Of a stretch of DNA of 64,000 bases, positions 3,673 through 35,780 are shown in pieces. The stretch spans positions 124,001 to 188,000 of the forward strand of contig JACRNB010000011.1 of assembly GCA_016219425.1 (NCBI GenBank). The letters are read 5' to 3'. Below the pieces are notes generated by a model that was not told the DNA's origin, made no database searches, and saw only the letters and a program-made list of their open reading frames with translations. The number at the start of each line of letters is the position of its first letter. The first letter of the stretch is position 1. This stretch comes from Betaproteobacteria bacterium (lineage in GTDB: Bacteria; Pseudomonadota; Gammaproteobacteria; Burkholderiales; Thiobacillaceae). The translations under genes and the position numbers were made by a program.

Positions 3673-3690
3673 AACAACCTCAGCGCGGGG

Positions 3691-16098: not shown

Positions 16099-16215
16099 CT
16101 GCTTGGCGCGCCCGGTCTTCAGGAGCCGCGCCCTACCCTTTCAATTGGAGAGCCTTGCTTAACTGTATGCCAGACCGCGCGAGGCAAGGAGACCTATCGC
16201 ATCCGCATGCCGCTT

Positions 16216-16450: not shown

Positions 16451-16457
16451 GCAACAC

Positions 16458-17903: not shown

Positions 17904-17916
17904 GGCGTTCAGGGCG

Positions 17917-18285
17917 TCAGTTGTGGCTGCCGCAACCGCCGGAACCGCAGCCGCCGCTGCCGCAACCACCGCCGCCGCCGCCGCTGGAACCGCAACTGCC
18001 GGCGCTGGCCTTCATGAATACGAAACGGGATTCGCCGGGAGAGACTTCGCTGTAGTCGATGGTGACGTCGTCCAGCATGGGGGCGGATTGGGCGTTGACG
18101 AGCAGGGTGACGCCCCAGGAGTCCACGGCGGCGTCGTTGCTGCGCTCGTCGTCGAAGCCCATGCCGAATTCCAGCATGCCGGCGTCGTTGATGCGGGCGG
18201 CGATGCGCAGGCCCATGTTTTCGGCGCCGGATTGCTGCGCCGCCACGCGCACCTGTTCGGCGGCTTCTTTGGTCAGACTGATCAT
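17917..18285 (-). CDS. dsrR: DsrR-like IscA-family protein with Gly/Cys-rich C-terminal tail
   Basis: MISLTKEAAEQVRVAAQQ... A-type scaffold fold, adjacent to dsrN; tail GSCGSSGGGGGGCGSGGCGSGGCGSHN. Confidence 0.8.
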   Translation of the reverse strand: MISLTKEAAEQVRVAAQQSGAENMGLRIAARINDAGMLEFGMGFDDERSNDAAVDSWGVTLLVNAQSAPMLDDVTIDYSEVSPGESRFVFMKASAGSCGSSGGGGGGCGSGGCGSGGCGSHN

Positions 18286-18305
18286 TTCAGGGTTCCTTTC
18301 GTAGG

Positions 18306-19691: not shown

Positions 19692-19715
19692 GGGGGCGAT
19701 CTTATCCGGGCGAAA

Positions 19716-19748
19716 ACAAAAAGCCGACTAAATTTGTCGGCTTTTTGT
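19716..19748. terminator. Bidirectional-looking rho-independent terminator between dsrP and dsrN
   Basis: Perfect 13-bp stem acaaaaagccgac-taaattt-gtcggctttttgt with U-tract on either strand. Confidence 0.85.
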
Positions 19749-19771
19749 GGGGAGGCCGTAACGCGTGCGGA

Positions 19772-21007
19772 TCAGTCCGTGGCGCGACGCATCTTCAGTT
19801 CTTCGAAGTCGTCGTGAGGCATGAACTTGAAGACGCGCACGGCGATGACGGTGAGCAGGAAGGCGATGCCAACTCCGCCGATGCCCAGCATCCATTCCCA
19901 CTTGCTGGGGCTGTAGGAGGCCACCACGCCATCGTAGAAGGTGCTGCTCACCTCATGACCGGGGAACAGGGGCATGGGGAAGGCCTGGCCGCCGATGATG
20001 GTGACGTACATCTGGGCCAGCCCGCCGAGCACCACCAGCAGGGGGGCGAGGAAGCAGAAACAGATGCGCTCGGTCTTGCCCGACCCCGCGCCGCCGGAAC
20101 GGGGGATGAACAGCAGGATCAGCGGAACGATGCCGCCCAGAATGATCTGGCCGACCCAGAAGGTGGTGGTGTAGATGCCGCCGTCCAGCAGGATGAAACG
20201 CTCGTACTCCCACTGCTTGGCGAAGTACAGGTTGGTCAGGTGGAAGACGATGGTGAAGTACAGGGAGGCGCCCACGAATACGGCGAGCAGATTCTTCATG
20301 CGGCGGCGCACGTTCACGTCCAGCAGTTGGTCGTTCCAGTAGTACATGGCGGATTGCACCACCATGAACACGGCGAGGCCGTAGCCGAACGACATGACGA
20401 TGAACATGGGCGCCATCAGGGCGGAGTTGTAGCCGGAACGGGCGGCGATAAAACCGAAGATGGAGCCGGTGGCCGTGGTCAAACCCAAGCGCCAGAGGAA
20501 GGCGACGAAACCGACGGGTTTGGACCACGCATTCATCTTCCGGTCCATCAGGGTGAGCAGGTACAGACCCACAATGGCGAAGAAGCCGTTGTAGAAGATC
20601 ATGTTCCAGGCAAAGATGGACTTGAAGTTGTAGTAGGTCATCGCGACGATGAGACGGTCGGGACGGCCCAGGTCGAGCACCAGCACCGCCAGACCGCCGG
20701 AGAGCATGGCCAGGGCCAGCATGCCGGAGAGGGGGGCGCGCGCCTTGTACACCGACTTGCCGAACACGGAGCCGATGGAGGCGATGTTGAGCACACCAGA
20801 CGCGGCGACGATCAACAGCACCGCGAACACATGGGGCAGGCCCCATACCACCTGGTTGTTCATGCCGGTGAGGACGTGACCGTGGTGCTCCAGGGTGAAG
20901 AAGGCATACAGGGCGCTCAGAACAATCAACCCGCCCAGACCCAGCAACAGCCAGAACTGGGTGGTCTTGCACTCTTGCTTGTTGGCGCAGTATTCGTTGG
21001 TGGCCAT
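19772..21007 (-). CDS. dsrP: DsrP, NrfD-family integral membrane protein
   Basis: Multi-TM NrfD/PsrC-type protein downstream of dsrO. Confidence 0.93.
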   Translation of the reverse strand: MATNEYCANKQECKTTQFWLLLGLGGLIVLSALYAFFTLEHHGHVLTGMNNQVVWGLPHVFAVLLIVAASGVLNIASIGSVFGKSVYKARAPLSGMLALAMLSGGLAVLVLDLGRPDRLIVAMTYYNFKSIFAWNMIFYNGFFAIVGLYLLTLMDRKMNAWSKPVGFVAFLWRLGLTTATGSIFGFIAARSGYNSALMAPMFIVMSFGYGLAVFMVVQSAMYYWNDQLLDVNVRRRMKNLLAVFVGASLYFTIVFHLTNLYFAKQWEYERFILLDGGIYTTTFWVGQIILGGIVPLILLFIPRSGGAGSGKTERICFCFLAPLLVVLGGLAQMYVTIIGGQAFPMPLFPGHEVSSTFYDGVVASYSPSKWEWMLGIGGVGIAFLLTVIAVRVFKFMPHDDFEELKMRRATD

Positions 21008-21010
21008 GTC

Positions 21011-21751
21011 TTAAATCCCCTGGTAACGCACGCCGGTGTTGAGGCCCATGTCGGCGCGCACCTCTACCGAGTCGTAGGCCTTGAGCGCCTTGGCGACCGC
21101 GCTTTCCGGGTCTTTCAGATCGCCGAAGATCATGGCCTGATGACTCTTGGTGTTGCAGGCCTCGACGCAGGCGGGTTGTTCATCCCGGTCCACCCGCTGC
21201 ACACAGAAGGTGCAGGACTCCACACATCCTTTGCCGCGCGGCACTTCCGGGTTCTGGTCGGTGAGCGGTTCATGCACGAAGGAACGCGCCTTGTAGGGGC
21301 AAGCCATCATGCAATAACGGCAGCCGATGCAGATATGACGGTCCACCAGGACGATGCCGTCGGCCCGCTTCATGGAGGCGCCGGTAGGGCAGACGTCCAC
21401 ACAGGGCGGGTTTTCGCAGTGCTGGCACATCATGGGCAGGCTTTGGACGAAGCCGGAGCGCAGGTCTTTGATGTCCACCTTGCGGATCCACTGGCTGTCC
21501 TGCGGGCCGGTCTTGCCGGACAGGCCGTTTTCCGTATTGCAGGCGGTGACGCAGTCATTACAACCGTCGCCGCACTTGGTGGTGTCGATCAGCATGCCCC
21601 AGCGCTTGGCGCTGGAGGCGCCTTCTTCCGGCGCACGGCTATGGGCGATGCCATAGAACAGCACGCCCGGCCCCAGGGTGACGCCTGCAACCAGTGCGCC
21701 CGCCTTGAGAAAATCGCGGCGGCTGCTTTCGGTGTTCGTGGATTCGCTCAT
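21011..21751 (-). CDS. dsrO: DsrO, periplasmic ferredoxin-like protein with Tat signal
   Basis: SRRDFLKAGALVAG Tat motif; CQHCENPPCVDVCPTGA, CIGCRYCMMACPY clusters. Confidence 0.95.
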   Translation of the reverse strand: MSESTNTESSRRDFLKAGALVAGVTLGPGVLFYGIAHSRAPEEGASSAKRWGMLIDTTKCGDGCNDCVTACNTENGLSGKTGPQDSQWIRKVDIKDLRSGFVQSLPMMCQHCENPPCVDVCPTGASMKRADGIVLVDRHICIGCRYCMMACPYKARSFVHEPLTDQNPEVPRGKGCVESCTFCVQRVDRDEQPACVEACNTKSHQAMIFGDLKDPESAVAKALKAYDSVEVRADMGLNTGVRYQGI

Positions 21752-22182
21752 TTCACGGACTCCTTGGCGAGATCCATCCGCGGGGACGGTTGCGCCACCT
21801 GGATGGGCTTTTTCATGGGCTTGGTGGCATGGCAGTCCCAGCAGTCCAGCTTGACGCTGGCGTAGCGGTGGCAGGACGCGCAGAAGTCATCCTTGCTGGC
21901 CGCCACGCTGCCGGTCTTCTCGCTGGCATGGCATTCCACGCACTTCTTGAGACTGTGCTTGGTGGTGCGGATGCCTTTACGCATCGTCTCGTCACGATGA
22001 TGCTTGAGGAGTTCCATATGGTTGCGACGCATGAACTGCGTCTCTTCCACACATTTCTCGCCCTTGCCCTTTTCGATCTTGGGCAGATCAACCCCCGCCG
22101 ACGCCTCCAGAACAGGGGCGGCGAAGATCATCGCCGCGCCGGCCAGGAGCGCCAGCCGCATCCAGGTACGAATGCTCGCCAT
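21748..22182 (-). CDS. dsrJ: DsrJ, triheme cytochrome c
   Basis: Three CxxCH motifs CVECH, CASCH, CWDCH after signal peptide. Confidence 0.93.
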   Translation of the reverse strand: MASIRTWMRLALLAGAAMIFAAPVLEASAGVDLPKIEKGKGEKCVEETQFMRRNHMELLKHHRDETMRKGIRTTKHSLKKCVECHASEKTGSVAASKDDFCASCHRYASVKLDCWDCHATKPMKKPIQVAQPSPRMDLAKESVK

Positions 22183-22199
22183 GCCGTTCTTCCTTTTGC

Positions 22200-24158
22200 T
22201 TAGTCGCCCATGCCCATGACGATGTAACCCGTCGGGCACACGTCCGCACAGATGTGGCAGCCGATGCACTTGCCATAGTCGGTGTCCACGTAGCGGCCCG
22301 TGGTGGGACCGTCCTTTTTCTTGACCTTGAACACGGCAGTCTGCGGGCAGTAGATGATGCAGTTGTCACATTCAAAGCACAGCCCGCAGGACATGCAGCG
22401 CTTGGCTTCCGCCACCACCTGCTTGTCATCCAGGGAATGCAGACGGTCATCGAAGTTGCCCAGGGCGGATTCCGCGTTCAGAACCGTTACGCCGCGCTGG
22501 TTGCGCGGGACGTTCAGGAAGTGCCCCAGGAACATCTCGGTGGACGGGATCACATAACGAGCGGAACGGTCTTCGTAGTTGTGCAGGGTGTCCTTCCACT
22601 CGGAAGTGCCCGTTTCCTGGCCGTGGTGCTCTTTGTACTCGTGGCCGGATTCGACCCACTTGCGCACCATGTCCCAGTGCGCCACATCCACCTTGGGACG
22701 CCTGTCGGCCTCCTCGCCCTTCAGGAAGGCATCGATGCCATCCGCGCAGATACGGGCATGGCCGATGGCGGTGGTGAGCAGGTGGGGACGGATCACGTCG
22801 CCGGCGACGAAGACGTTCGGCTTGTTGGGGAAGCGGTAGTTCTTGTCGGTCTTGATCAGGCCGTTGTTGTTGTTGAAGCCTTCCAGGCCGGTGAAGTCCA
22901 CGGCCTGACCGATGGCGGCGACGATCAGGGTGGCGTCGATGTCGCGCTCGGTGCCTTCCTTGATCTTGGTTTCCTTGCCCACCACTTCAAACTCGGCCAC
23001 GCGCAGGGCGATGGCGCGACCACTCGCATCCTTGACCACTTCCACCGGGGTGACGCCGCCGACGATGTCGATGCCTTCCGCCTTGGCTTGCTCGATCTCG
23101 TGCTTGTTGGCGGCCATCTTGTCCACGGTGGCGCGGGAGATCAGCACCACTTCCACGCCCATGCGGGCGGCGATGGAGGAGACGTCATGGGCGGTGTGAC
23201 CGGCCAGCACCATCTCCGGCAGGTCGGAGGTGGAGGGGTTGGTGATCTTGCCGAGACGACGGGCGACGGTGGCGACGTCAATGGAGGTGTCGCCGCCGCC
23301 AATAACCACGACCTTGTCGCCCACATGCTGCAGGCGGCCTTCGTTGAAGGCGCGCAGGAATGCGGTGGCGGGTACGCAGTTGGGGGCGTCCGCGCCAGGG
23401 ACCGGCAGGGTGCGACCGCCCTGAGCGCCCAGGGCGATCAGGATGGCGTCGAATTCCTTCTCGATCTGCTCCATCGCCACATCCGTGCCGATACGGCAGT
23501 TCAGGCGGGTGTCCACGCCCATGTCGGTGATGCGCTTGATCTCGCCATCCAGCACTTCACGCGGGGTGCGGAAGCCGGGGATGCCGTAACGCATCATGCC
23601 GCCGAGTTCGGCGTGGTCATCAAAGATGGTGCAGGCATGACCCATGCGGCGCAGCTGGTACGCAGCGGCCAGACCGGCGGGGCCGCCGCCGATGATGGCG
23701 ACCTTCTTGCCGGTTTCGGCGCCGGGGGCGTCGAAACCGATGTTGTTATCCAGCGCCCAGTTGCCGACGAAGTGCTCCACCGAGTTGATGCCGACGTTCT
23801 CTTCCACCTGATTGCGGTTGCAACCGGATTCGCAGGGGGCGGGACAGACGCGGCCCATGACGGCGGGGAAGGGGTTGGCGGTGGTTATGCGGCGGAAGGC
23901 GTATTCCTGCCAGGTCATGCCGGCGGTGGGCTTTTCAATACCGCGCACGATGTTGAGATAGCCGCGGATGTCTTCGCCGGCGGGGCAGGAACCCTGGCAA
24001 GGGGGGGTGGAGTGCACATACTCGGGGCACTTGTGGGTCCAGCTCGCCTGGAAAATCTTGTCCTGGTTGCTGCGATAGTTCTCTTCGGTTTCGCCGTCCT
24101 TGTAACGACGCCAGCTGACGCCTTCGGTTTTGGCAACATTCTTGGAAGTGACCGACAT
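22200..24158 (-). CDS. dsrL: DsrL, NAD(P)H:acceptor oxidoreductase / GltD-like iron-sulfur flavoprotein
   Basis: GGGPAGLAAAYQLRRMGH, C-terminal CMSCGLCFECDNCIIYCPQ ferredoxin domain, dsr context. Confidence 0.94.
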   Translation of the reverse strand: MSVTSKNVAKTEGVSWRRYKDGETEENYRSNQDKIFQASWTHKCPEYVHSTPPCQGSCPAGEDIRGYLNIVRGIEKPTAGMTWQEYAFRRITTANPFPAVMGRVCPAPCESGCNRNQVEENVGINSVEHFVGNWALDNNIGFDAPGAETGKKVAIIGGGPAGLAAAYQLRRMGHACTIFDDHAELGGMMRYGIPGFRTPREVLDGEIKRITDMGVDTRLNCRIGTDVAMEQIEKEFDAILIALGAQGGRTLPVPGADAPNCVPATAFLRAFNEGRLQHVGDKVVVIGGGDTSIDVATVARRLGKITNPSTSDLPEMVLAGHTAHDVSSIAARMGVEVVLISRATVDKMAANKHEIEQAKAEGIDIVGGVTPVEVVKDASGRAIALRVAEFEVVGKETKIKEGTERDIDATLIVAAIGQAVDFTGLEGFNNNNGLIKTDKNYRFPNKPNVFVAGDVIRPHLLTTAIGHARICADGIDAFLKGEEADRRPKVDVAHWDMVRKWVESGHEYKEHHGQETGTSEWKDTLHNYEDRSARYVIPSTEMFLGHFLNVPRNQRGVTVLNAESALGNFDDRLHSLDDKQVVAEAKRCMSCGLCFECDNCIIYCPQTAVFKVKKKDGPTTGRYVDTDYGKCIGCHICADVCPTGYIVMGMGD

Positions 24159-24252
24159 CTTCGCTCTCCTATCGTCAAAGCTTCGCGGCTATGGAAATTT
24201 GCCGCACATCTCATGTTGGCGCGGCCCTAGGTCGCGCCACTCAAAGGAAAAA

Positions 24253-25776
24253 TCAATCCAGCTTGATGGCCGTGCTCACCAATTGGTGCACACCGCCCAC
24301 CGAACCCCGGTCGAAACCGTAGTACGGCAATACCTTGGTGAACTGGGCCTTGCAGATGGCGCAGATCAAGGCCAGGAAGTTCACCTTGTCCTTCTGCACC
24401 ACGTTGTTGTACGCATTCATGCGCGGCAGCGCGCCCTTCACCCGCACTTCGATCAGGTCGTCCGTCAACAAACCGCCGCCGCCACCGCAACAGAAGGTGC
24501 CTTCGCGGATGGTCTCGCCCGCCATGTCATGGAAGTTGTTCGCCACGGCCTTGATGATGTTGCGCGGGATCTCGAACTGCCCGCCCGGCTCATCGCCCAT
24601 GCGCGAACCGCGCGAGACGTTGCAGGAGTCGTGGTAGGTGATGACGCGGTCGTCGTTCAGCGACTTGTCGAACTTGAGCACGCCCTTCTGGATCAGATCC
24701 CAGGTGTATTCGCAGATGTGCATGGGCTGCGGATAACGCGGGTCCAGTTGCTGTTGCAGTTCGATGGAGAAAGGATCCTTGCCGTCGAAACCGATGCCGG
24801 TGAGGGTGTTCCAGAAGCTGTAGGCAACGCGCCAGGCGTGGCCGCACTCGCCCACGATGATGCGCTTCACGCCCAGTTCCAGGGCGGCGTCCCGAATCCG
24901 CATGGCGACCTTGCGCATGGTTTCGTAGTTGCCGCTGAACAGGCCGAAGTTGCCCGCCTCGGAGGCCTTCGAGGACAGGGTCCAGGAAGCGCCGGCGGCG
25001 TGGAACACCTTGGCGTAGCCGATCAGGGAGTCCACATGAGGCTCGGAGAAGAAATCGGCGGACGGCGTCACCAGCAGGATTTCAGCGCCGGCCACGTCGA
25101 GAGGCATCTTCACCGGTACGCCGGTATCCGCCTCCATGTCCTCTTCCAGACCCAGCAGGGTGTCTTCCAGAGCGGGGCCGGGCAGGCCCAGGTTATTGCC
25201 GATCTTCTGGACCTTGACCAGGATCTCGTTGGAATACTTCTGGCCCATGCCCACATGGTTCAGGATCTCGCGCCCGGCCATGGTGACCTCGGCAGTGTCG
25301 ATGCCGTAGGGGCAGTAGACGGAGCAGCGACGGCACTCGGAACACTGGTGGTAATAGTTGTACCACTGGTTCAGCACGTCCTCGGTCAGGTCCGCAGCAC
25401 CCACCAGCCAGGGGGCGATCTTGCCCGGCAGGGTGAAGTAACGGCGATAGACCTTGCGCATCAATTCCTGGCGCGCGACCGGCATGTTGTTCGGGTCGGC
25501 GGTGCCCAGGAAGTAGTGGCATTTGTCGGTGCAGGCGCCGCAATGCACACAGGCATCCATGAACACGCGCAGGGAACGGTATTTGCCGAGCAGATCGCCC
25601 ATCTTGTCGATGGCGCGCTCTTTCCAGTCTTCACCCAACTTGAACGGGTAGCCCAGGAAATCCTGGGGGCCCTGCGGGGCGACAAAAGACTTCACATGCG
25701 CCATCGCCCCCGGCTTGATCTTGGGGACGTCGGTGTATTCCGTCAGCGTGGGGACTTCGAATTCTGGGCCGGCCAC
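24253..25776 (-). CDS. dsrK: DsrK, HdrD-like iron-sulfur subunit (GTG start)
   Basis: CVHCGACTDKCHYFLGT, CSECRRCSVYCPYGID, CCGGGGG CCG domain. Confidence 0.94.
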   Translation of the reverse strand: MAGPEFEVPTLTEYTDVPKIKPGAMAHVKSFVAPQGPQDFLGYPFKLGEDWKERAIDKMGDLLGKYRSLRVFMDACVHCGACTDKCHYFLGTADPNNMPVARQELMRKVYRRYFTLPGKIAPWLVGAADLTEDVLNQWYNYYHQCSECRRCSVYCPYGIDTAEVTMAGREILNHVGMGQKYSNEILVKVQKIGNNLGLPGPALEDTLLGLEEDMEADTGVPVKMPLDVAGAEILLVTPSADFFSEPHVDSLIGYAKVFHAAGASWTLSSKASEAGNFGLFSGNYETMRKVAMRIRDAALELGVKRIIVGECGHAWRVAYSFWNTLTGIGFDGKDPFSIELQQQLDPRYPQPMHICEYTWDLIQKGVLKFDKSLNDDRVITYHDSCNVSRGSRMGDEPGGQFEIPRNIIKAVANNFHDMAGETIREGTFCCGGGGGLLTDDLIEVRVKGALPRMNAYNNVVQKDKVNFLALICAICKAQFTKVLPYYGFDRGSVGGVHQLVSTAIKLD

Positions 25777-25814
25777 GTTTGCTCCTTAGTCTTTGATCTC
25801 AGCGCGTTTGAACA

Positions 25815-26552
25815 TCAGCCGTTGTCACGTTCCAGGGCGGCGGCCCAGGGAGCGATATGACGGGTTTCACGCGGGTTGTCGGCCTGGTTGCGGGTGGGGC
25901 TGAAGAAGATGCCGGGGGCATGCAACAGCTTGCTGACGGGGAAGATGATCATCAGCAGGGCGACCAGGAAGAGGTGGGCCAGCAGGGGGCCGTCGGCAGG
26001 CAGAGGCTGCCAGTCGAACGTCATCAGTCCAAGCGCAAAGGCCTTGAGGGCGATGATGTCGGTATGGCTGACGAAGCTCATGACCACGCCAGTGAGGCCG
26101 ATGGCGATGAGCAGAGCCAACATCAGGTGATCCGAAGGGGTGGAGATGTAGCGCACCCGGTCCACCAGAAAACGACGCGCCCACAGGCCGGCCAGACCCG
26201 CCAACATCATGAAACTGGCGTACTTGCCAAAGGGCTGGACGAATTCCACCCAAAACCAGACCGGCTCCTGGAAATACCGGACGTGACGGGCCAGAACCAG
26301 GGCCAGGCCGACATGGAACAGCCAGCCGAACACCCAGATCCACTTGTTGGACTTGAACAGGCTTTCAAACAGGACGACTTCCCGCGCCATGCGGGCCGCC
26401 ACGCCGAGATGGGTGGTGGGCGCGGGCGTGGTGGGTATCTTCAGGGGCGCCGGGGTGCGGCTGTACTCGACAATGCGATAGGCCAGCCCGCCAATCAGGA
26501 CCAGCGCGGCAAAGTAGTACAGGCCGATGTAAAAAAGCGTCAGGGAAGTCAT
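25815..26552 (-). CDS. dsrM: DsrM, NarI-like cytochrome b subunit
   Basis: TM protein upstream of dsrK; FHVGLALVLARHVRYF, FPVSKLLHAPGIFFSPTRNQADNPRE. Confidence 0.93.
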   Translation of the reverse strand: MTSLTLFYIGLYYFAALVLIGGLAYRIVEYSRTPAPLKIPTTPAPTTHLGVAARMAREVVLFESLFKSNKWIWVFGWLFHVGLALVLARHVRYFQEPVWFWVEFVQPFGKYASFMMLAGLAGLWARRFLVDRVRYISTPSDHLMLALLIAIGLTGVVMSFVSHTDIIALKAFALGLMTFDWQPLPADGPLLAHLFLVALLMIIFPVSKLLHAPGIFFSPTRNQADNPRETRHIAPWAAALERDNG

Positions 26553-26580
26553 CCGTCGTACCTACAGTCGAAAGAAGATC

Positions 26581-26629
26581 GAGTCGAGAGTGGGGAGCCG
26601 GGAATTCGCATCCATTCGGCTCTCGACTC
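26581..26629. other. Inverted repeat between dsrC and dsrM (candidate mRNA hairpin)
   Basis: gagtcgagag (26581-26590) complementary to ctctcgactc (26620-26629). Confidence 0.6.
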
Positions 26630-26684
26630 TCGGCTTATGCAGCCGGGAGGAAGTCCAGGGCCAAGGCCCCGGACATTTGCTGCG

Positions 26685-27020
26685 TCAGATACAGCCGGTC
26701 GGCTTGGGCAGACCGCCGATCTTGCAGGCTTGCTTGGCGGGACCGTAGGGGAACAGTTCGTACAGATACTTGTTGTTGCCCTTGTCCGGCCCCAGCTTCT
26801 TGCCGATGGCCTTGGTCAGCACGCGGATCGCGGGGGCGATCTGGTACTCGTCGTAGTACTCGCGCAGGAAGTCGATGACTTCCCAGTGAGACTCGGTCAT
26901 GTCGACCTTTTCTTCCTTGGCCATGTACTCAGCCACGTCCCGGTTCCAGTCGGCCAGATTGGTCAGAAATCCTTCCTCGTCCAGCTCAACGTCCTTACCA
27001 GCGATATTCACGGTAGCCAT
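26685..27020 (-). CDS. dsrC: DsrC, sulfur carrier with both conserved C-terminal cysteines
   Basis: C-terminus QACKIGGLPKPTGCI. Confidence 0.97.
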   Translation of the reverse strand: MATVNIAGKDVELDEEGFLTNLADWNRDVAEYMAKEEKVDMTESHWEVIDFLREYYDEYQIAPAIRVLTKAIGKKLGPDKGNNKYLYELFPYGPAKQACKIGGLPKPTGCI

Positions 27021-27044
27021 AGAAGCTCTCCTATTTGATAAAAA

Positions 27045-27344
27045 TTACAGCCAAGACTGACAGTTGCTGTGTTCCGCGACGAGATCCACAAAACCGCCGT
27101 AATCCACCACATTGACGCCATCCAGCACGCGTGCGGACATCCCGCGTGCAGCGAGGTCCGGCCCGAGGGCATAGACCTTGACATTGGGCATGGCCGCCTT
27201 GACCTTTGCCTCCGACATGTTGCCGGCGGTCGCCGCATAGACGGCATCCTCAATCAGCAGCACCGCGGAACCGTCTTTTGCATGACCCAGGCAGGTGTCC
27301 ACGCTGTTGCGCTCGCTGGGTGACTTATTGACTATGTGCAGCAT
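27045..27344 (-). CDS. dsrH: DsrH / TusB-family sulfurtransferase subunit
   Basis: MLHIVNKSPSERNSVDTCLGHAKDGSAVLLIEDAVYAA. Confidence 0.93.
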   Translation of the reverse strand: MLHIVNKSPSERNSVDTCLGHAKDGSAVLLIEDAVYAATAGNMSEAKVKAAMPNVKVYALGPDLAARGMSARVLDGVNVVDYGGFVDLVAEHSNCQSWL

Positions 27345-27359
27345 TTTCGCGTTCTCCGA

Positions 27360-27752
27360 TCAGAAGCTGAGGACCACGTCCTGCTCGTTCATCAAGTCCG
27401 CCATCTCGGCAGCGCCCACAACCTGAACATCCACCACGAGATCGTCCTCGCTGAGTCCGCGCGCCTCCAGGGATTCGCGCTCCACGTAGAGCTTCTCGAT
27501 GTCATACCCTTCCAAGGCGCGATAGGTCTTGGAAAAGCTCTTCATCTCGATGCCATCGGTGTTGATGTTCTTCATCAACTGGTACACGCCGTCATCAATG
27601 AAGGCGAGGCTCACGTCCTGCTCGAACGCAGCGGAAATCAGCACAACTTCCAGGCTCTCCAGGGCATAGATGGTGCCGTAGGGGGCCTTGCGGTTCACGA
27701 ACATGAACTTCTTGATCGTGCCGCCTTCTTCCATATCCATTTCGTCGGACAT
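27360..27752 (-). CDS. dsrF: DsrF / TusC-family sulfurtransferase subunit
   Basis: KFMFVNRKAPYGTIYALESLEVVLISAAFEQDVSLAFIDDGVYQL. Confidence 0.93.
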   Translation of the reverse strand: MSDEMDMEEGGTIKKFMFVNRKAPYGTIYALESLEVVLISAAFEQDVSLAFIDDGVYQLMKNINTDGIEMKSFSKTYRALEGYDIEKLYVERESLEARGLSEDDLVVDVQVVGAAEMADLMNEQDVVLSF

Positions 27753-27762
27753 CGCTTTTCCC

Positions 27763-28155
27763 TCAATCGCCGAAAGTCACCAGACGGTCACACTGGATGC
27801 CGGCCTCGACCAGCTGTCCCAGACCCGAGATGCGGAAGGCAGGAGCAATATTGCTGGCATCCTTGCCCTGACGCTTGGCCTCGTTGTCATCCATCATGCC
27901 GCGCCGCTGCGCCGCCGCGATACACACCACCAGATCAAGGTTGTGTTCCTGAGCCAGAGCGCTCCAGCGGTTGACGATGTGACGGTCGTCCGCCGGGGGC
28001 ACGGTCAGGCGCGAGGCGTTGTTGACGCCATCGTGATAGAAGAACACGCGGAAGATCTCGTGCCCCTTGGCGAGACAGGCCTTGGCAAACAGGTAGGCGG
28101 AGTCCGACGCCTGATGCTGGTAGGGCCCTTCGTTAACCAAAATACCGAATTTCAT
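27763..28155 (-). CDS. dsrE: DsrE / TusD-family sulfurtransferase subunit
   Basis: MKFGILVNEGPYQHQASDSAYLFAKA; active-site-type LVVCIAAAQRRG. Confidence 0.94.
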   Translation of the reverse strand: MKFGILVNEGPYQHQASDSAYLFAKACLAKGHEIFRVFFYHDGVNNASRLTVPPADDRHIVNRWSALAQEHNLDLVVCIAAAQRRGMMDDNEAKRQGKDASNIAPAFRISGLGQLVEAGIQCDRLVTFGD

Positions 28156-28218
28156 TTGTATATCCCTATCTCCGAATAACTGAGCGGAAGACAACCCCGG
28201 CGCTGACCGGGGCGGCCA

Positions 28219-29292
28219 TCAGAAACGGATGTGAGCCGAAGCGTTCAGACTGCTGCGACCACCGCGCCAGTTATCCACGTGATACTTGGTGAACGGCAGA
28301 CCCGTCTTTTCGAAGAACGCAGGCCAACCGATACGGTCGATCCAGTCGTTCATGCGCTCCCACGGACGACCATCCGCCTTGTATGTGGCCAGGATGTTCT
28401 TGACCACAGCGCCCACTTCGGGCCAACGCGGGGCGTTGTTGGGCAGACCGGAGGCAACCAGCTTGTGGAAGGTGGGACGTGAGCGGGCGTTGGAGTTCTT
28501 GCCGCCGACCCAGATGGCGATCTTGGAATACTCGGGGTCGTTGATCTGCATCGGGGGGCACGGGGGGAAGCAGGCGCCGCAGCAGATGCACTTCTTCTCG
28601 TCCACTTCCAGGGAGGGCTTGCCGTTCACCAGGGCGGGACGAATCGCCGCGACCGGGCAACGGGCCACCACGGAGGGGCGCTCGCAGATGTTGGCCACCA
28701 GATCATGGTTGATCTTGGGAGGCTTGGTGTGCTGCACGACGATGGCGATGTCAGCCTGGCCGCCGCAGTTGATCTCGCAGCAGGAGGTGGACAGCTTGAC
28801 GCGGTTGGGCATCTCACACTTGACGAAATCATCGTACAAATCGTCCATCAGGGCCTTCACCACGCCGGAGGCGTCGGTGCCGGGGATGTCGCAGTGCAAC
28901 CATCCCTGGGTGTGGGCGATCATGGATACGGAGTTGGCGGTGCCGCCCACCGGGAAGCCGTTCTCGCTCAGGGTCTTGATCAGGGGCTCAACCTTGGCCT
29001 GCTCGGTGACCATGTACTCGATGTTGGAACGGGTGGTGAAACGCACATAACCGTCGGCGAACTGGTCGGCGATGTCGGCCAGCTTGCGGATGGTGTAGTG
29101 GTCCATCTGGCGCTGAGTGCCGGCCTTGACGGTCCAGATCTCGTCGCCATTCTCGGCGCGGTGATAAAGCACACCCGGTTTCGGATGGGAGTGGAAATTC
29201 CACTTCCCATAGTTCTTCTTCATCACGGGGTGCATGTAGGGCATCGGGTCCGGGGTACCGGATTCGATGGTTTCGTGAGTCCTTTCAGCCAT
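28219..29292 (-). CDS. dsrB: Dissimilatory sulfite reductase beta subunit (oxidative type inferred from operon)
   Basis: STSCCEINCGGQADIAIV, CICCGACFPPCPP; downstream of dsrA. Confidence 0.96.
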   Translation of the reverse strand: MAERTHETIESGTPDPMPYMHPVMKKNYGKWNFHSHPKPGVLYHRAENGDEIWTVKAGTQRQMDHYTIRKLADIADQFADGYVRFTTRSNIEYMVTEQAKVEPLIKTLSENGFPVGGTANSVSMIAHTQGWLHCDIPGTDASGVVKALMDDLYDDFVKCEMPNRVKLSTSCCEINCGGQADIAIVVQHTKPPKINHDLVANICERPSVVARCPVAAIRPALVNGKPSLEVDEKKCICCGACFPPCPPMQINDPEYSKIAIWVGGKNSNARSRPTFHKLVASGLPNNAPRWPEVGAVVKNILATYKADGRPWERMNDWIDRIGWPAFFEKTGLPFTKYHVDNWRGGRSSLNASAHIRF

Positions 29293-29369
29293 ACTTCTCT
29301 CCAACTTTTCTGTGAGATTGGAAATTTGTCGCGCCGGTCCGGCCTTGCAGCCGGACCAACATCGTCCTG

Positions 29370-30668
29370 TTAGGCAGCCGCCTTACGCTCGAACCACTTG
29401 GCCGCCTCTTCGTCCCAGCCGTCGGTACGCACGTAGGGGTTGGTACGGGGATGAACGATCATGTTGGGGTCCACTTCCAGGCCGATGCCTTCCAGGAAGT
29501 TGACCAGACCGATACGCTCGATCATCTCGCCGGTACGCTCGTGCTCCAGCGCGTTTTCCGCGAAGAAGTCGAGGATGGTGCGGGACAGGTCGTTCAGCTT
29601 CTCGAAGTCCTCGTCGGACTCCATCTTCATGAACGGAATCACCACGGTACCCATGGAGGCGCCGATCTTCAGCACGCTCTTGCCGCCCACCAGGATGGTC
29701 ACGCCCTTGTCTTTACCGGGCAGCAGCGCGCCGGGCATGACATTCAGGCAGTGCATGCAGCGCACGCAGTTGTGGTTGTCGATCTCCAGGCAGTTCGCAT
29801 CGGACACCGCCACCTTGGTGACACCCTCGCCAGCGGCAACGCCATCGTTCTTGACCAGACGGATGGCGCGGGTGGGACACATGCTGACCACCATGTTGGT
29901 CAGGTCTTCCACGCTGTGGGCAGCCATCCATTCGCGGGCGATCTTCTCGTCCGCGCGGATGCTGTCACGCCAGGTGCCGATGGTGGCCATGTCGGAACGC
30001 TGGATGGAGTTCACGCAGTCGTTCGGGCAGCCGGAGAACTTGAACTTGAACTTGTACGGCAGCGACGGACGGTGCATGTCGTCGATGTTGTTGTTGATGA
30101 CCACACGCAGGGCGCGGGCCTCGTCGTAGCAGGACATCTCGCAACGGGCGGCGCCGACGCAGGACATGGAGGTGCGCAGCGCGGGGCCGGCGCCACCCAG
30201 ATCGAAGCCCATCTCGTTGAACTTGTCGAAGGAACGCTGCACGTCACCGGTCTTGATGCCTTGCAGCATGATGTCGCCGGACTGGCCGTGGAAGGCGATC
30301 AGGCCGGAGCCGCCGGTTTCCAGCCAGGCGTCGCACATCTGGCGCAGCAGGTCGGAGGTGTAGTGCATGCCGGCGGGGGGCATGATGCGCAGGGTGTGGA
30401 ACTCAGCCGCCTCGGGGAACAGGGGCTTGTGGTCCGCGCCCTTGAGTTCGGTGAAGCGGGGGATCACGCCGCCGCCGTATCCGACGACGCCCACAGTACC
30501 GCCCTTCCAGTAGCCGAAGCGGGTCTTGTAGGAGGTTTCCAGCTGGCCCATCAGATCGACCATCATGTCGTTGTCTTTAGCCAGGCGCTTGAGACCTGTC
30601 ACGAAGGAAGGCCACGGGCCCTTTTCCAGTTCGTCCAGGTTGGGCGTATCAACCATTTGTTTAGCCAT
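29370..30668 (-). CDS. dsrA: Dissimilatory sulfite reductase alpha subunit (oxidative type inferred from operon)
   Basis: MSCVGAARCEMSCYDEA, FKFSGCPNDCVNSI, NCVRCMHCLNVMP. Confidence 0.96.
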   Translation of the reverse strand: MAKQMVDTPNLDELEKGPWPSFVTGLKRLAKDNDMMVDLMGQLETSYKTRFGYWKGGTVGVVGYGGGVIPRFTELKGADHKPLFPEAAEFHTLRIMPPAGMHYTSDLLRQMCDAWLETGGSGLIAFHGQSGDIMLQGIKTGDVQRSFDKFNEMGFDLGGAGPALRTSMSCVGAARCEMSCYDEARALRVVINNNIDDMHRPSLPYKFKFKFSGCPNDCVNSIQRSDMATIGTWRDSIRADEKIAREWMAAHSVEDLTNMVVSMCPTRAIRLVKNDGVAAGEGVTKVAVSDANCLEIDNHNCVRCMHCLNVMPGALLPGKDKGVTILVGGKSVLKIGASMGTVVIPFMKMESDEDFEKLNDLSRTILDFFAENALEHERTGEMIERIGLVNFLEGIGLEVDPNMIVHPRTNPYVRTDGWDEEAAKWFERKAAA

Positions 30669-30931
30669 CTGTGTTTCTCCTTGAAGTCTCGAACGAGTCA
30701 TCACAACCGTGCACTTTCCAGAGGCGCTCAACGAGACGGCGCCATGGACCAAGTGGATGCATATTAGGGAGCGCTTATCCTGCCAACCATCATTCCGATG
30801 GAGTAAGCATGTATTTCACTCGGGTAAGCCCACCCTACCCTTTCGGGTAGTGCCAGCTATCCCATGCCGGTAATGCCAATACCTGACCGGGGATGTCAGA
30901 TTATCAGCCTATCAACACATGCTAATGGATT

Positions 30932-31171
30932 ATGGATCACATCACCTCGCTGGCGAAATTCCGAAATCCTTATGGCAACCAGGAAATCGAGTTGCAGGAG
31001 GTGCGCTATGAGGCCGGCGGCACCCCCATGATGCGGCTGCGCATCCGCGAGCGCGGCGCACGTTTCACCATCTTCGACATCGACCCCGTCACGGCCCGAT
31101 ATTGGGCTGGGGAGATGAAGCAATGGGCCGACCCCCTGGCGGACTCCGCACCGCCGCCCCCTTTGGAATGA
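30932..31171 (+). CDS. Uncharacterised 79-aa protein, first gene of divergent operon
   Basis: Complete ORF MDHITSLAKFRNPYGNQEIELQEVRYEAGGTPMMRLRIRERGARFTIFDIDPVTARYWAGEMKQWA; 3-nt gap to next gene. Confidence 0.75.
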   Translation: MDHITSLAKFRNPYGNQEIELQEVRYEAGGTPMMRLRIRERGARFTIFDIDPVTARYWAGEMKQWADPLADSAPPPPLE

Positions 31172-31174
31172 GCC

Positions 31175-31825
31175 ATGCGCCTGTTTAGCCCCGAGTGGGA
31201 AGCCATCAAGGAATTCGACACGCAGGCCCAGGTGCGCGAGGCCCAGTTCGATCTCGCCGGGCGGCAACTCCCTGCGGATCATGGTCTCGTCCTGCATGAA
31301 GCCTTGTGCGCCCGCCTGCCCTGGCTGGCTGACACCCCCGGCGCCGGCGTACACCCCATCCAGGGAGAGGACAACGGCGCCGGGGCGCTGGTGATCGGAC
31401 GCCGCACCAAGCTGACCCTGCGCCTGCCCATCCAGCGCATGGCGGATGCTGCGGCCCTGTGCGGCGCTCGTTTCGACCTGGGCAACGGCCCCATCACGGT
31501 CGGCGCGCTGAAGGAACGCCCGCTGATGCCCTGCGCCTATCTCTATTCCCATTTCGTCGATCTGGGGATGGCGGACGAGGTGGAGTTCCTTGCCGAAGCG
31601 CGCCGCCATCTGGATGCGATGGCGCTGCCGGGCGGACTGATCCCCGGCAAGCAACGTAAAATGCGCGTTCCCCGCGGGGAGATCGTGGGATACAGCCTGA
31701 TGCTGCACGACATCTCCCTGGCCCAGTCCATCACGCTGCAAGAGCAAGGCCTGGGCGGCTATCGTGGTCTGGGATGCGGCCTTTTCATACCGCACAAATC
31801 CATCAAGGAAGTCATTGCGGGCTGA
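31175..31825 (+). CDS. Cas6/Cmx6-like RAMP protein (resembles type I-MYXAN Cas6), orphan
   Basis: LPADHGLVLHEALCARLPWLADTPGAGVHPI N-terminal block and C-terminal G-rich loop LQEQGLGGYRGLGCGLFIPHKSI. Confidence 0.8.
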   Translation: MRLFSPEWEAIKEFDTQAQVREAQFDLAGRQLPADHGLVLHEALCARLPWLADTPGAGVHPIQGEDNGAGALVIGRRTKLTLRLPIQRMADAAALCGARFDLGNGPITVGALKERPLMPCAYLYSHFVDLGMADEVEFLAEARRHLDAMALPGGLIPGKQRKMRVPRGEIVGYSLMLHDISLAQSITLQEQGLGGYRGLGCGLFIPHKSIKEVIAG

Positions 31826-31865
31826 CCAGCCCGTCTCATTCTCAACCTGCCTAAAGGAGCAAACC

Positions 31866-32198
31866 ATGGGATACATCGTCAACGGCGAAGAACTTGAAAC
31901 AGACGAAGACGGCTTTCTGGTGGAAGCCAACTTCAGCGACGACGTGGTGCCGGTCATCGCCGAAGCTGAAAAGATCACGCTCACCGACCTGCACTGGCAG
32001 GTGGTTCGTTTCATGCGTGAGCGCTACCAGGAAGACGGCCACACCCCCAACTTCCGCAACATGCTCGCCATGCTGTCCGAGGAAGACGATAGCCAGGACT
32101 GGAAAAAGGTGCTGTACGAACTCTTCCCCCTGCAACCCAACCGCCAGTCCGCCAAGGTCGCCGGCATGCCCAAACCCTTCGGCAAGGGCGGGTACTGA
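31866..32198 (+). CDS. DsrC/TusE-family paralogue lacking both C-terminal cysteines
   Basis: MGYIVNGEELETDEDGFLVEANFSDDVVPVIAEAEKITLTDLHWQVVRFMRERY...SAKVAGMPKPFGKGGY. Confidence 0.92.
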   Translation: MGYIVNGEELETDEDGFLVEANFSDDVVPVIAEAEKITLTDLHWQVVRFMRERYQEDGHTPNFRNMLAMLSEEDDSQDWKKVLYELFPLQPNRQSAKVAGMPKPFGKGGY

Positions 32199-32201
32199 GC
32201 T

Positions 32202-32270
32202 GTAGGAGCCGGCTTGCCGGCGATATGCGTGACGGCCCATCGGCCTGATCGCGGGCAAGCCCGCTCCTAC
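32202..32270. repeat. REP-like paired palindrome (gtaggagc...gctcctac)
   Basis: gtaggagccggcttgccggcgat ... atcgcgggcaagcccgctcctac. Confidence 0.8.
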
Positions 32271-32281
32271 CCCCCTACACC

Positions 32282-33133
32282 ATGTTCTCCAACACCCTCG
32301 TCACCACCGAAGACCTCGCCGCGCACCTGGACGACCCGCAGTGGGTCGTACTGGACTGCCGCTTCACCCTGACCGACAGCACAGCGGGTCGGCAGGCCTA
32401 CCTCAAAGGACACATCCCCGGCGCGCGTTACGTGCATCTGGATGAAGACCTGTCCGCCCCCATTACCGACGCCACCGGACGCCACCCCCTGCCCGACCCC
32501 GCCGCCTTTGCCGAACAGGTCTGCGCCTGGGGCATTGGCGTGAACAAGCAGGTGGTGGTCTATGACGACAGCTTCGGCGCCATGGCCGTGCGCGCCTGGT
32601 GGATGCTGCGCTGGCTGGGCCACCCCGGCGTCGCCCTGCTCGACGGCGGCTACCCCAAGTGGCTGCGCGAAAAACGCCCCGTCACCCCCGACCTGCCGAC
32701 GCCGCACAAGGCCAGTTGCGCCTGTCTGCCGGAACCCTCCCAGATCGTCGATGCCGACACCGTGTTGCGCGCCTCGCGCAGCGGCGACGCCCTCCTCATC
32801 GACGCCCGCCCGGAGCGCCGCTTCAGCGGCGAATTCGAACCCCTGGACCCGGTCGCCGGCCACATCCCCGGCAGCATCAACTGGTCGTTCGAAGAAAACC
32901 TCGACATCGACGGCACCTACATGCCGCCCGAGGCCCTGCGCGAAAACTTCCAGGCCCTGCTCAAGGGCCGCGCCCCCTGGCAGGTGATCCACACCTGCGG
33001 CTCCGGCGTCACCGCCTGCCACAACCTGCTCGCCATGGAGATCGCCGGCCTGCCCGGCTCGCGCCTCTACCCCGGCTCCTGGAGCGAATGGATTCGCGAC
33101 CCCTCCCGCCCCGTCGCCACCGGAGAACAATAA
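32282..33133 (+). CDS. Two-domain rhodanese / 3-mercaptopyruvate sulfurtransferase-like
   Basis: Active-site loop CGSGVTAC, GHIPGARYVHLDEDLS, YDDSFGAMAVRAWWMLRWLGH. Confidence 0.94.
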   Translation: MFSNTLVTTEDLAAHLDDPQWVVLDCRFTLTDSTAGRQAYLKGHIPGARYVHLDEDLSAPITDATGRHPLPDPAAFAEQVCAWGIGVNKQVVVYDDSFGAMAVRAWWMLRWLGHPGVALLDGGYPKWLREKRPVTPDLPTPHKASCACLPEPSQIVDADTVLRASRSGDALLIDARPERRFSGEFEPLDPVAGHIPGSINWSFEENLDIDGTYMPPEALRENFQALLKGRAPWQVIHTCGSGVTACHNLLAMEIAGLPGSRLYPGSWSEWIRDPSRPVATGEQ

Positions 33134-33134
33134 C

Positions 33135-33722
33135 GTGGTCAAACCCGTCCGCATCCGCACCACCTGGTTCAAAAAGGAAGGCGAACGCCCGGCGGAAGAA
33201 ACCGCCTCCGTCCTTGCCTCCACCCTCTGGCGCCTGGCCGACAAGGCGGTGGACAACCTCTCCCGCGCCGACTACGACATCGTCACCCCCCAACGCGGCT
33301 TCCGCATCCTGGGAGAACTGACCTGTTTCCTCGCCCACTATGTCGATCGCCTGTTGTATGGCCGCGTGAGCGACGCCGCACGGGCGGAGATGGTCACCGC
33401 CACCGCCCTGCAACTGGCCGGAATCATGGAAGAAAACATCCTCGACTTCACCGGCGGCCAGAAAGACCCGGAATACGACTACAAGCAGGGCTACATCGAC
33501 CTCATCAACACCCGCTCCACCGACTACTCCGAGTTCGAGTTTCCGCCCGACAAGGCCAGTTACCAGGCCCTGCGCTTCCTCTCCCTGCAAATCCGCGACG
33601 TGATGGAAGACAGCGACAAGAGCTGGATTCAAGACCAGCTCATGGACATCGAGATACCGGAAATGATGGGCGCCACCAAAAAAGCGATGGACGGCTTCTT
33701 CCCGCCCCCGGCCACCTCATGA
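33135..33722 (+). CDS. Uncharacterised protein (GTG start)
   Basis: Complete ORF abutting rhodanese and overlapping the next gene by ATGA. Confidence 0.75.
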   Translation: MVKPVRIRTTWFKKEGERPAEETASVLASTLWRLADKAVDNLSRADYDIVTPQRGFRILGELTCFLAHYVDRLLYGRVSDAARAEMVTATALQLAGIMEENILDFTGGQKDPEYDYKQGYIDLINTRSTDYSEFEFPPDKASYQALRFLSLQIRDVMEDSDKSWIQDQLMDIEIPEMMGATKKAMDGFFPPPATS

Positions 33723-34681
33723 TCCCCGCCGACAGCCCCTTCCACCCCGACAACGACACCGCCTACCAAGCCTGGCGCGACGCCAAACTGGCGAACTACC
33801 CGACGCGAGGCGAAGACCTCATCGTCCCGGTGCGGGACTTCCGGCAACTGAGCGATGCCGAATACGCCGCCCTCTGGCAACGCATCGCCAAGACCAACAT
33901 GGCCATCTACGCGGTGGAGAACCACGACCCGCTGGACAAGGACATCCCGCGCCTCCTCGGCGCCCAGTTCGGCCTCACCCATCTCGACCCCAACTGGCTC
34001 GCGGACGAAGACGGCATCACCAGCCTCACCCCCCGGGACGAAGACGCCAGCGCCCCGGATGAACGCACCCCCGGCGTGGACCCCGGCAAGCGCGGCGACT
34101 ACATCCCCTACACCCACCACCGCATCCGCTGGCACACCGACGGCTACTACAACCCGCCCGAGCGGCGCATCCTCGCCATGGGCCTGCACTGCGCCCGCCA
34201 GGCCGACAGCGGCGGCGAGAACGACCTCTACGACCACGAACTCGCCTACATCGCCCTGCGCGACGCCCACCCGGACCACATCCGCGCCCTCATGGCCCCG
34301 GATGCCATGACCATCCCCGCGCGGGTGGACGAAAGCGGCCAGGCCCGCCCGGACGAGACCGGCCCCGCCTTCCTGGTGCATGAAAACGGCCTGCACCTGC
34401 GCTACACCGCCCGCACCAAGAGCATCCGCTGGAAGGACGACGCCCCCACCCGCGCCGCCCTCCAGGCCCTGGACGACCTGCTGGCCTCCCACCCCTTCGG
34501 CGCCTACACCCTGCGGATGCAGCCCGGCATGGGCCTGCTCTGCAACAACGTCCTGCACACCCGCGCCGGCTTCACCGACCGCCCCGAGCACCGGCGTCTG
34601 CTCTACCGCGCCCGCTACCACGACGCCCTGAAACGACTTGCCGCCTGCCCGCCCCAGGGGCCGACGGAGGCGATGCCATGA
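33719..34681 (+). CDS. TauD/TfdA-family Fe(II)/2-oxoglutarate dioxygenase
   Basis: HTDGYYNPPERRILAMGLHCARQADSGGENDLYDH and CNNVLHTRAGF. Confidence 0.85.
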   Translation: MIPADSPFHPDNDTAYQAWRDAKLANYPTRGEDLIVPVRDFRQLSDAEYAALWQRIAKTNMAIYAVENHDPLDKDIPRLLGAQFGLTHLDPNWLADEDGITSLTPRDEDASAPDERTPGVDPGKRGDYIPYTHHRIRWHTDGYYNPPERRILAMGLHCARQADSGGENDLYDHELAYIALRDAHPDHIRALMAPDAMTIPARVDESGQARPDETGPAFLVHENGLHLRYTARTKSIRWKDDAPTRAALQALDDLLASHPFGAYTLRMQPGMGLLCNNVLHTRAGFTDRPEHRRLLYRARYHDALKRLAACPPQGPTEAMP

Positions 34682-34706
34682 GCCGGCGCGTTTCGCTCTG
34701 GCGCGG

Positions 34707-35780
34707 TCAGTGTCCGTGACGGTGATGCACATCCGGGAAATGGGCGTGCATGTGGCGGATCGGCGCGTGCCCATGCGGGTGGCTATGGGGCTCACGCCCA
34801 TCCCAGGCGAAATCGTGTTCATGCTGGTGATGTTCGTCGTGCACATGGGCATGTTCATGTCCCAACGGCTCATGCGTATGCGTGTGCGCGTGGCGTTCGG
34901 TCAGATGCAGCCAAACGCCGACGCCCATCAACAGGACGGCCAGCCAGAAAGAGGCCGACGTGGCCTCCCCCAGAAACGGAATGGCGATGGCGGCCCCGAT
35001 GAAGGGCGCGGTGGAGAAATACGCGCCGGTGCGGGCCGTACCCAGATGCCGTAGCGCGACGACAAACAGCGACAGGCTCGCGCCATAGGCGAACAATCCC
35101 AGCAGCAAGGCGGCGCCGATGCGGCCAGGGTCTGGCCAGACGGCGCCGTGCGCCAGGGCCAGCATCAGGTTGACCGAACCGGCGGCGAGCCCCTTCAGCG
35201 AGGCCAGCCAGCTTGCATCGACCAAAGCGACTCGGCGCGTCAGGTTGTTGTCGACGGCCCAGGCGAAACAGGCGCCCAACACGGCCAGTCCCGGGCCGAT
35301 TTCACCCAGCGCCGCGCCATCCCAACCGTCGGCAGGCCCGCTCAACACAACCGCCCCCGCGACGATGGCCGCCATGCCCAGGGCGATGCGCCGGTCGACG
35401 TTTTCCCGGAACACGAACCAGGCCAACAACGCGGTGAACACCGCCTCGGCATTCAACAGCAACGACGCCCCGGATGCCGGCATACCAGCCAGGCCGGTCA
35501 TCAGGAGCGCCGGCCCGATCACGCCCCCGCTACAGATCGCACCGATCAGCCAGGGCCATTCCGCGGTCGGCAGACGCACGACCGGCATCCTGCGTAACCG
35601 CCGGTACAGCCACAGGCCCAGGCCGGAGCCGAGATACAACAGGCCCGCCAGCAACCAGGGATCGACCGCCGCCAACAACGCCTTCGCCAACGGCGCGCCG
35701 GCCCCGAACAACAGGGCCGCCCCCAACGCGGCGGGGATGCCGGGTTGGCGGAGGCCGCGCCGCCAGATGGCCATCACCAT
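34707..35780 (-). CDS. EamA/DMT-family transporter with very His-rich C-terminal tail
   Basis: 10-TM-like hydrophobic pattern; tail HAHTHTHEPLGHEHAHVHDEHHQHEHDFAWDGREPHSHPHGHAPIRHMHAHFPDVHHRHGH. Confidence 0.85.
   Translation of the reverse strand: MVMAIWRRGLRQPGIPAALGAALLFGAGAPLAKALLAAVDPWLLAGLLYLGSGLGLWLYRRLRRMPVVRLPTAEWPWLIGAICSGGVIGPALLMTGLAGMPASGASLLLNAEAVFTALLAWFVFRENVDRRIALGMAAIVAGAVVLSGPADGWDGAALGEIGPGLAVLGACFAWAVDNNLTRRVALVDASWLASLKGLAAGSVNLMLALAHGAVWPDPGRIGAALLLGLFAYGASLSLFVVALRHLGTARTGAYFSTAPFIGAAIAIPFLGEATSASFWLAVLLMGVGVWLHLTERHAHTHTHEPLGHEHAHVHDEHHQHEHDFAWDGREPHSHPHGHAPIRHMHAHFPDVHHRHGH

Follow-up and report, generated by a model that had tools for sequence, protein, structure and literature searches.

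The closest described relatives of the protein analyzed in this study are the type I-MYXAN/I-B Cas6 proteins (Cmx6), including the CAST proteins of PDB entries 8fcj and 8fcu. Cas6L, as we call the Cas6 homolog described here, belongs with them to the TIGR02807 and PF09559 families, has the same fold (TM-score 0.83), and shares their G-rich loop, Gln189, Arg83, and usual histidine of helix α-1, which is Asn in the CAST protein. In contrast to these relatives, Cas6L has no neighboring cas genes or array, tracks dsrA rather than Cas1, is near-neutral to acidic instead of basic, and has invariant residues of its own (R77, E135, and a PHK motif). Cas6 from Pyrococcus furiosus, TTHA0078 and Cse3 from Thermus thermophilus, and Cas6e from Escherichia coli share the double ferredoxin-like RAMP fold with Cas6L (TM-scores of approximately 0.4–0.65), but these proteins have a CRISPR context and their sequence similarity to Cas6L is undetectable beyond the G-rich loop.

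The partner of Cas6L, a cysteine-free DsrC paralog encoded beside it and designated DsrC′, has two described relatives. DsrC, whose canonical gene is present in the same locus, shares the PF04358 domain and a similar C-terminal arm up to the GLP motif, whereas the DsrC′ of the window (the whole 64,000-nucleotide stretch of DNA analyzed here) lacks both tail cysteines and ends in KGGY, with two additional residues. TusE belongs to the same NCBIfam subfamily (TIGR03342), but DsrC′ scores below the TusE equivalog cut-off (77.5 versus 191 bits) and lacks the sulfur-carrying cysteine. RspA-type DsrC paralogs, like DsrC′, are DsrC-family proteins without active cysteines. A search of the open-licence literature, with subscription papers outside its scope, found neither a Cas6 homolog paired with a cysteine-free DsrC nor a link between Cas6 and dsr, and to our knowledge no system of the Cas6L–DsrC′ kind has been described. 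Reverse Dsr is one of the main routes by which sulfur is oxidized in sediments, vents, and symbioses, and the set of its genes had been regarded as well mapped.

Results

Organization of the Cas6L gene cluster

The features of the locus are listed in Table 1. The first-pass annotation of this DNA had described three tightly packed plus-strand genes approximately 260 bp from dsrA, and its coordinates and gaps (3 nt, then 40 nt) proved exact. Because the ORF start at 30752 precedes a conserved MAKQ start, we place the start of dsrA at approximately 30668, and the distance between dsrA and the cluster is therefore 263 bp. DUF6967, the product of the first gene, was found in all 19 beta-type loci of a species-representative scan (19/19) and was undetected in two gamma loci (L020 and L021). 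In gamma loci, a TauD-family homolog is located immediately upstream of Cas6L. The window genome also has a second dsrA with 80% identity (G000:C11:58998-60293; L159:8999-10294), which has no dsrB close to it; the ORF that follows is short and DsrC-like (30% identity, with the match at L159:10836-11096).

Table 1 Genes and sequence elements around the Cas6L cluster in the window.
Feature	Position	Strand	Evidence
Canonical dsrC, C-terminal cysteine tail ACKIGGLPKPTGCI	26685..27020	-	PF04358 2.5e-47 and alignment
dsrB	28219..29304	-	
dsrA, first gene of the divergent dsr operon	29370..30668	-	
Probable operator dyad CTACCC-N4-GGGTAG, in the upstream region common to dsrA and Cas6L	30835..30850		
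Small DUF6967 protein (79 aa), encoded at the start of the operon	30932..31171	+	PF22295 8.7e-29
Cas6L (Cas6 family), 216 aa	31175..31825	+	PF09559, TIGR02807, AlphaFold, Foldseek
Hairpin GCGGGCT-gacc-AGCCCGT straddling the Cas6L stop codon, lead only	31817..31834	+	
DsrC′ (DsrC/TusE family, cysteine-free), 110 aa, C-terminus KGGY	31866..32198	+	PF04358 2.1e-30
Rhodanese-family sulfurtransferase, next gene 3′ of the cluster, kept in beta-type loci	32282..33133	+	PF00581
Protein of 195 aa without Pfam match, neighborhood-conserved	33135..33722	+	
TauD-family dioxygenase-like protein	33719..34681	+	PF02668

Family, fold, and conserved residues of Cas6L

The Cas6/Cmx6 identity that the first-pass annotation had read from the middle product of the cluster was borne out by profile searches. 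Cas6L scored well above the cut-offs of PF09559 (1.7e-55, 188.4 bits; cut-off 26.7) and TIGR02807 (2e-46, 158.4 bits; curated cut-off 98.85), it matched the PADLOC Cas6 profile (2.2e-56), and all 54 aligned homologs matched PF09559 (54/54). An AlphaFold2 model built with the 54 homologs as input had a pLDDT of 90.5 and a pTM of 0.86. The nearest solved structures in a Foldseek search were the Cas6 proteins of type I-B CAST Cascade, 8fcu (8fcu_B) and 8fcj (1.8 Å, at the TM-score given above), and the next-best matches were Cas6 proteins of P. furiosus, T. thermophilus, and E. coli. Thus, structure prediction, which the first-pass annotation had named as a check, returned the RAMP/Cas6 fold.

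The features of Cas6L include His36 in helix α-1, Arg77, Arg83, Glu135, a G-rich loop (residues 192–204), and PHK (residues 206–208). Few parts of the protein are as conserved as the G-rich loop, in which G192, G194, G200, and G202 are invariant (alignment A1). In a survey of 184 Cas6L loci, in which some genomes are counted twice via two collections, R77 and R83 are present in 184/184, E135 in 182/184, and H36 in 170/184. Position 36 is Asn in 13 of the 14 proteins of one genus (g10) and in one other protein. H36 is the first residue of helix α-1 in the model, a position at which other Cas6 proteins carry their catalytic histidine; PDB entry 4c97, among the structural matches of Cas6L, represents T. 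thermophilus Cas6 with an H37A substitution. By analogy with these proteins, we infer that H36 is probably catalytic. We considered Asn in place of His36 as proof of inactivity and dropped this reading, as the type I-B CAST Cas6 also has Asn there.

Charge separates the dsr-linked proteins from their CRISPR-linked relatives. The controls were few and mostly cyanobacterial, consisting of seven cyanobacterial homologs and the CAST Cas6. R83, Q189, and the G-rich loop are common to these controls and Cas6L, whereas R77, E135, and PHK 206–208 are generally absent from the controls. The median pI of dsr-linked Cas6 proteins is 5.8–6.4 versus 9.5 in the eight CRISPR-linked controls, and their net charge is −3 to −6.5 versus +7.5 in the CRISPR relatives. 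The difference resides chiefly in the stretches 125–139, 155–169, and 185–199, with basic charge lost in the 155–169 hairpin and the G-loop of the dsr-linked proteins. In a phylogenetic tree, made by a quick method and containing long branches, a branch with an SH-aLRT support of 99 separated all 64 dsr-linked Cas6 proteins from the CRISPR-linked ones. Cas6L is a Cas6-family protein by sequence but not a CRISPR Cas6 when judged by its context, distribution, and charge.

Distribution of Cas6L relative to dsrA and CRISPR

All 21 Cas6L loci of the species-representative scan adjoin dsrA (21/21). Every Cas6L locus inspected that had enough flanking sequence showed a dsr context, with no cas genes or array adjacent; the cyanobacterial control Cas6 proteins were beside cas genes in 7/7 cases. 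In the family to which the window belongs, TIGR02807 was found in 106/117 genomes (57/59 of the good ones) and Cas1 in just 64/117. Nine of the 11 family genomes without Cas6L have no convincing dsrA, while the dsrA of the remaining two is either divergent in kind (G105) or a fragment (G090).

We extended the survey to 369 genomes drawn evenly from the class Gammaproteobacteria. dsrA was present in 118 genomes, PF09559 in 118, and both in 111, corresponding to an odds ratio of 553 (p = 5e-76, a descriptive value only, which ignores shared descent and linkage). Where the two genes were on the same contig, 81 of 83 pairs were divergent and no more than 6 kb apart; both exceptions belong to one family (f111), in which the genes are 41 and 517 kb apart and Cas6L is still kept. 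Co-occurrence of neighboring genes partly reflects shared inheritance. Seven genomes had Cas6L without a dsrA match, and in both of the two that we inspected (G243 and G209) the locus was at a contig end. Cas1 was present in 41 of the 80 good Cas6L genomes and absent from 39. Five genomes of 1.0–1.1 Mb (G155, G258, G371, G403, and G467) have Cas6L and dsrA without Cas1.

In a phylum-wide sample of 249 genomes, 50 had dsrA, and PF09559 was found only in the three of these from Gammaproteobacteria. It was absent from the 47 Dsr-bearing genomes outside the class, including four whose DsrA is 63–65% identical to that of the window; therefore, Cas6L is not needed for Dsr chemistry as such. It represents an addition to the basic chemistry at the level of the class.

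The first-pass annotation had suggested that a Cas6-fold protein and a DsrC paralog may be tied to sulfur metabolism, RNA thiolation, or dsr regulation rather than to CRISPR immunity. The presence of Cas6L follows dsrAB and not CRISPR, which upholds the link with sulfur metabolism on far stronger ground than the earlier reading had. The further expectation that such pairs recur beside dsr in genomes lacking CRISPR held for other genomes, with 39/80 lacking Cas1, but not for the window genome itself, which has CRISPR.

No Cas6L was found in viruses, either in phage records or in IMG/VR. Separately, a plasmid of Gloeobacter morelensis (L112, 3968-4759) carries an orphan Cas6/Cmx6 gene outside any annotated CRISPR locus, with a phosphoadenosine phosphosulfate reductase-family gene close by. 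This is a second context of the family outside CRISPR.

CRISPR loci of the window genome

The window itself contains no CRISPR array, as had been noted before. Its sole periodic signal, near 16216–16448, is a short tandem array of REP-like palindromes (GTAGGAGC...GCTCCTAC), a pair of which is also located at 32198–32268, just 3′ of DsrC′. Elsewhere, the genome has a type I-G locus on contig C9, with approximately 55 repeats and its own Cas5-Cas6 fusion gene, and a type III-D locus on C11, approximately 50 kb past the end of the window, with approximately 24 repeats. The latter (G000:C11:231700-245000; L035) encodes RT, tandem Cas2-like proteins, Cas1, and III-D effectors, and its repeat is GTTTCAAGCGGCATACACCGCAAATGGAATTACAAC; no Cas6 was seen near it among the ORFs scanned. 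The Cas6 family PF01881 had no match in the window genome, and the only TIGR02807 match is Cas6L. An I-MYXAN cas operon elsewhere in the genome would have spoken against the sulfur-related reading of the first-pass annotation; neither of the CRISPR loci present, I-G and III-D, is I-MYXAN.

DsrC′ and its KGGY tail

DsrC′ of the window scored 105.7 bits against PF04358 (cut-off 24.9) and 84.8 bits against TIGR03342 (cut-off 53.5). It had been annotated as a cysteine-less DsrC paralog, and indeed there is no cysteine anywhere in the protein. The tail is KGGY in all 60 extracted loci (60/60), with endings such as GLPESRRKGGY and GMPKPFGKGGY replacing the GLPKPTGC(I/V) tail of DsrC. The predicted structure has a pLDDT of 91, falling to 68 in the tail. 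A DsrC′ with KGGY adjoins Cas6L in 157/184 loci, counted over a stretch of approximately 1.1 kb downstream of Cas6L in most of them, and two more loci have DsrC′ on the other strand. The four Dsr genomes outside the class with a DsrA of 63–65% identity have DsrC′ with KGGY and no Cas6L; therefore, DsrC′ is more widely spread than Cas6L. In one reverse-Dsr genome outside the class, a gene assigned by eye as a TtcA-like tRNA thiolase adjoins DsrC′ (L132, 201-1836).

Phage dsrC genes are established (PMC8190135, PMC4164917). We found KGGY-type DsrC′ on three putatively viral IMG/VR contigs (L302, L303, and L304; 2974-3315 in the last), and the 220-kb contig L302 encodes a canonical DsrC and DsrC′ in tandem (3001-3336 and 3350-3691). 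Surveys of phage dsrC probably pool DsrC and DsrC′, and the KGGY protein is likely to be mistaken for true DsrC in host and phage surveys alike. If these are truly viral copies, DsrC′ on phage would suggest that the protein is important during infection of sulfur oxidizers.

Upstream dyad and RNA hairpins

A dyad of the form TA(C/T)CC..GG(A/G)TA precedes dsrA by approximately 110–330 nt in beta and gamma loci. Of the beta-type loci, 19/20 have it, as do 16/29 of the gamma loci, compared with approximately 3% in shuffled sequences, a contrast inflated by the choice of the pattern after the sequences had been seen. None occurred in eight other loci, nor was the strict form found in g10; beta loci have extra GGGTAA half-sites. 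The position of the dyad between two divergent operons in beta loci makes shared regulation likely, and the dyad is a likely operator of a dsr regulator. We abandoned its interpretation as an RNA hairpin in favor of a likely DNA operator because the apparent promoter elements, assigned by eye, are outside the dyad.

The hairpin at the stop codon of Cas6L had a mean score of 16.9 versus 10.5 for shuffled sequences at 20 beta-clade loci and was absent in g10 and gamma loci. In beta loci, stable intercistronic hairpins also lie 3′ of dsrA and of dsrC (mean z of −1.8 and −3.0, respectively). We considered these as a shared RNA target and did not retain the idea: the stop-codon hairpin is confined to the beta clade, and the dsrA and dsrC hairpins, which have no obvious common sequence, are leads only. 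Each of the beta-clade hairpins may serve as a substrate or as a terminator, or have neither role. No conserved RNA target common to all clades was found, and an Rfam search over 15000–35000 gave no credible match.

Discussion

Cas6L has a Cas6 fold and family-specific invariant residues, is a near-universal companion of dsrAB in Gammaproteobacteria irrespective of Cas1, and forms a pair with DsrC′. The data strongly support the exaptation of a CRISPR-family protein into sulfur oxidation, which we regard as very probable. We propose that a Cas6 of the I-MYXAN/I-B branch was recruited early in Gammaproteobacteria into the reverse-Dsr locus and would now work outside CRISPR, together with DsrC′. 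Cas6L may recognize one specific RNA with a defined structure, the simplest candidate being a stem-loop in the mRNA of dsr or of the Cas6L operon, and would bind or cut this RNA by means of the retained α-1 histidine and G-rich loop. DsrC′, with a KGGY tail unable to carry sulfur, would report the sulfur-relay state of DsrC or compete for it, and the two proteins together would tune the expression or stoichiometry of dsr.

We favor this scheme as a whole, in which a recruited Cas6L acts on structured RNA with DsrC′ as a reporter of the sulfur relay, by a modest degree. Direct interaction of Cas6L and DsrC′ is an evenly balanced matter. An RNA-directed role of Cas6L, considered by itself, is a tentative proposal to which we give slightly less than even weight. 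The α-1 histidine, the conserved arginines, and the G-rich loop speak for such a role, while the loss of the CRISPR-type basic charge speaks against ordinary binding of repeat RNA. Asn36 in g10, the lost charge, the lack of an RNA target common to the clades searched, and the null result with Rfam all count against the RNA step.

The main alternative retains the partnership and dispenses with RNA. The Cas6 fold may serve as an RNA-free protein adaptor, in which an acidic surface stands in for the RNA groove and Cas6L, bound to DsrC′ or DsrAB/DsrC, assembles or gates the sulfur relay. All dsr-linked clades have lost the basic charge, which is consistent with an adaptor, as are the tight pairing with DsrC′, the new invariants R77, E135, and PHK absent from CRISPR relatives, and the replacement of His36 in g10. 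However, a pure adaptor would need neither the histidine retained in 170 of the 184 loci nor the highly conserved G-rich loop, and DsrC′ occurs without Cas6L in the four genomes outside the class. We consider the adaptor a real possibility, although somewhat improbable.

The membership of DsrC′ in the DsrC/TusE family and the TtcA-like gene beside it in one genome outside the class (L132, assigned by eye) would fit a tRNA thiolation module composed of a TusE-like DsrC′ and an RNA-binding protein. We hold this to be highly unlikely, as the sulfur-passing cysteine of TusE is missing from DsrC′ and only one such TtcA neighborhood was seen among those inspected. Less probable still is that Cas6L is a CRISPR Cas6 that acts in trans on arrays such as the type III-D one of the window genome. 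The absence of Cas6 among the ORFs scanned at that locus, the ability of the III-D repeat GTTTCAAGCGGCATACACCGCAAATGGAATTACAAC to form a GCGG/CCGC hairpin, and the I-MYXAN Cas6 name of the family profile point in this direction. But half of the Cas6L genomes lack Cas1, including the reduced genomes of 1.0–1.1 Mb, the gene tracks and adjoins dsrA, and its basic charge is lost; a role in trans, even if real in the window strain, cannot account for the distribution of Cas6L. That Cas6L is a neutral passenger, a captured cas6 kept solely through linkage to a horizontally mobile dsr locus, is barely credible, for although physical linkage accounts for part of the co-occurrence and Cas6L is absent outside the class, its frames are open in nearly all genomes, R77 and R83 are retained in 184/184 loci across divergent families, and the gene is kept in genomes of 1.0–1.1 Mb and, in f111, at 41 and 517 kb from dsrA.

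The recruitment of Cas6L into sulfur oxidation bears on annotation as well as on biology. The TIGR02807 model, named type I-MYXAN Cas6, scores dsr-linked proteins of g10 down to E = 5e-75, and these dsr neighbors are therefore likely to be annotated as CRISPR genes in public genomes. If the exaptation is true, it would expose a systematic misannotation of dsr-linked proteins under TIGR02807. Nearly all gammaproteobacterial dsrA carriers sampled have this conserved gene beside dsrA, and it has apparently been overlooked owing to the CRISPR name of its family. In its broadest form, which we consider rather unlikely, the proposal would have a Cas6-type endonuclease and a sulfur-sensing, cysteine-free DsrC acting as a general post-transcriptional regulator of reverse Dsr in Gammaproteobacteria, a previously undescribed kind of regulation. 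If Cas6L works in sulfur oxidation, it would represent an exaptation from CRISPR to metabolism.
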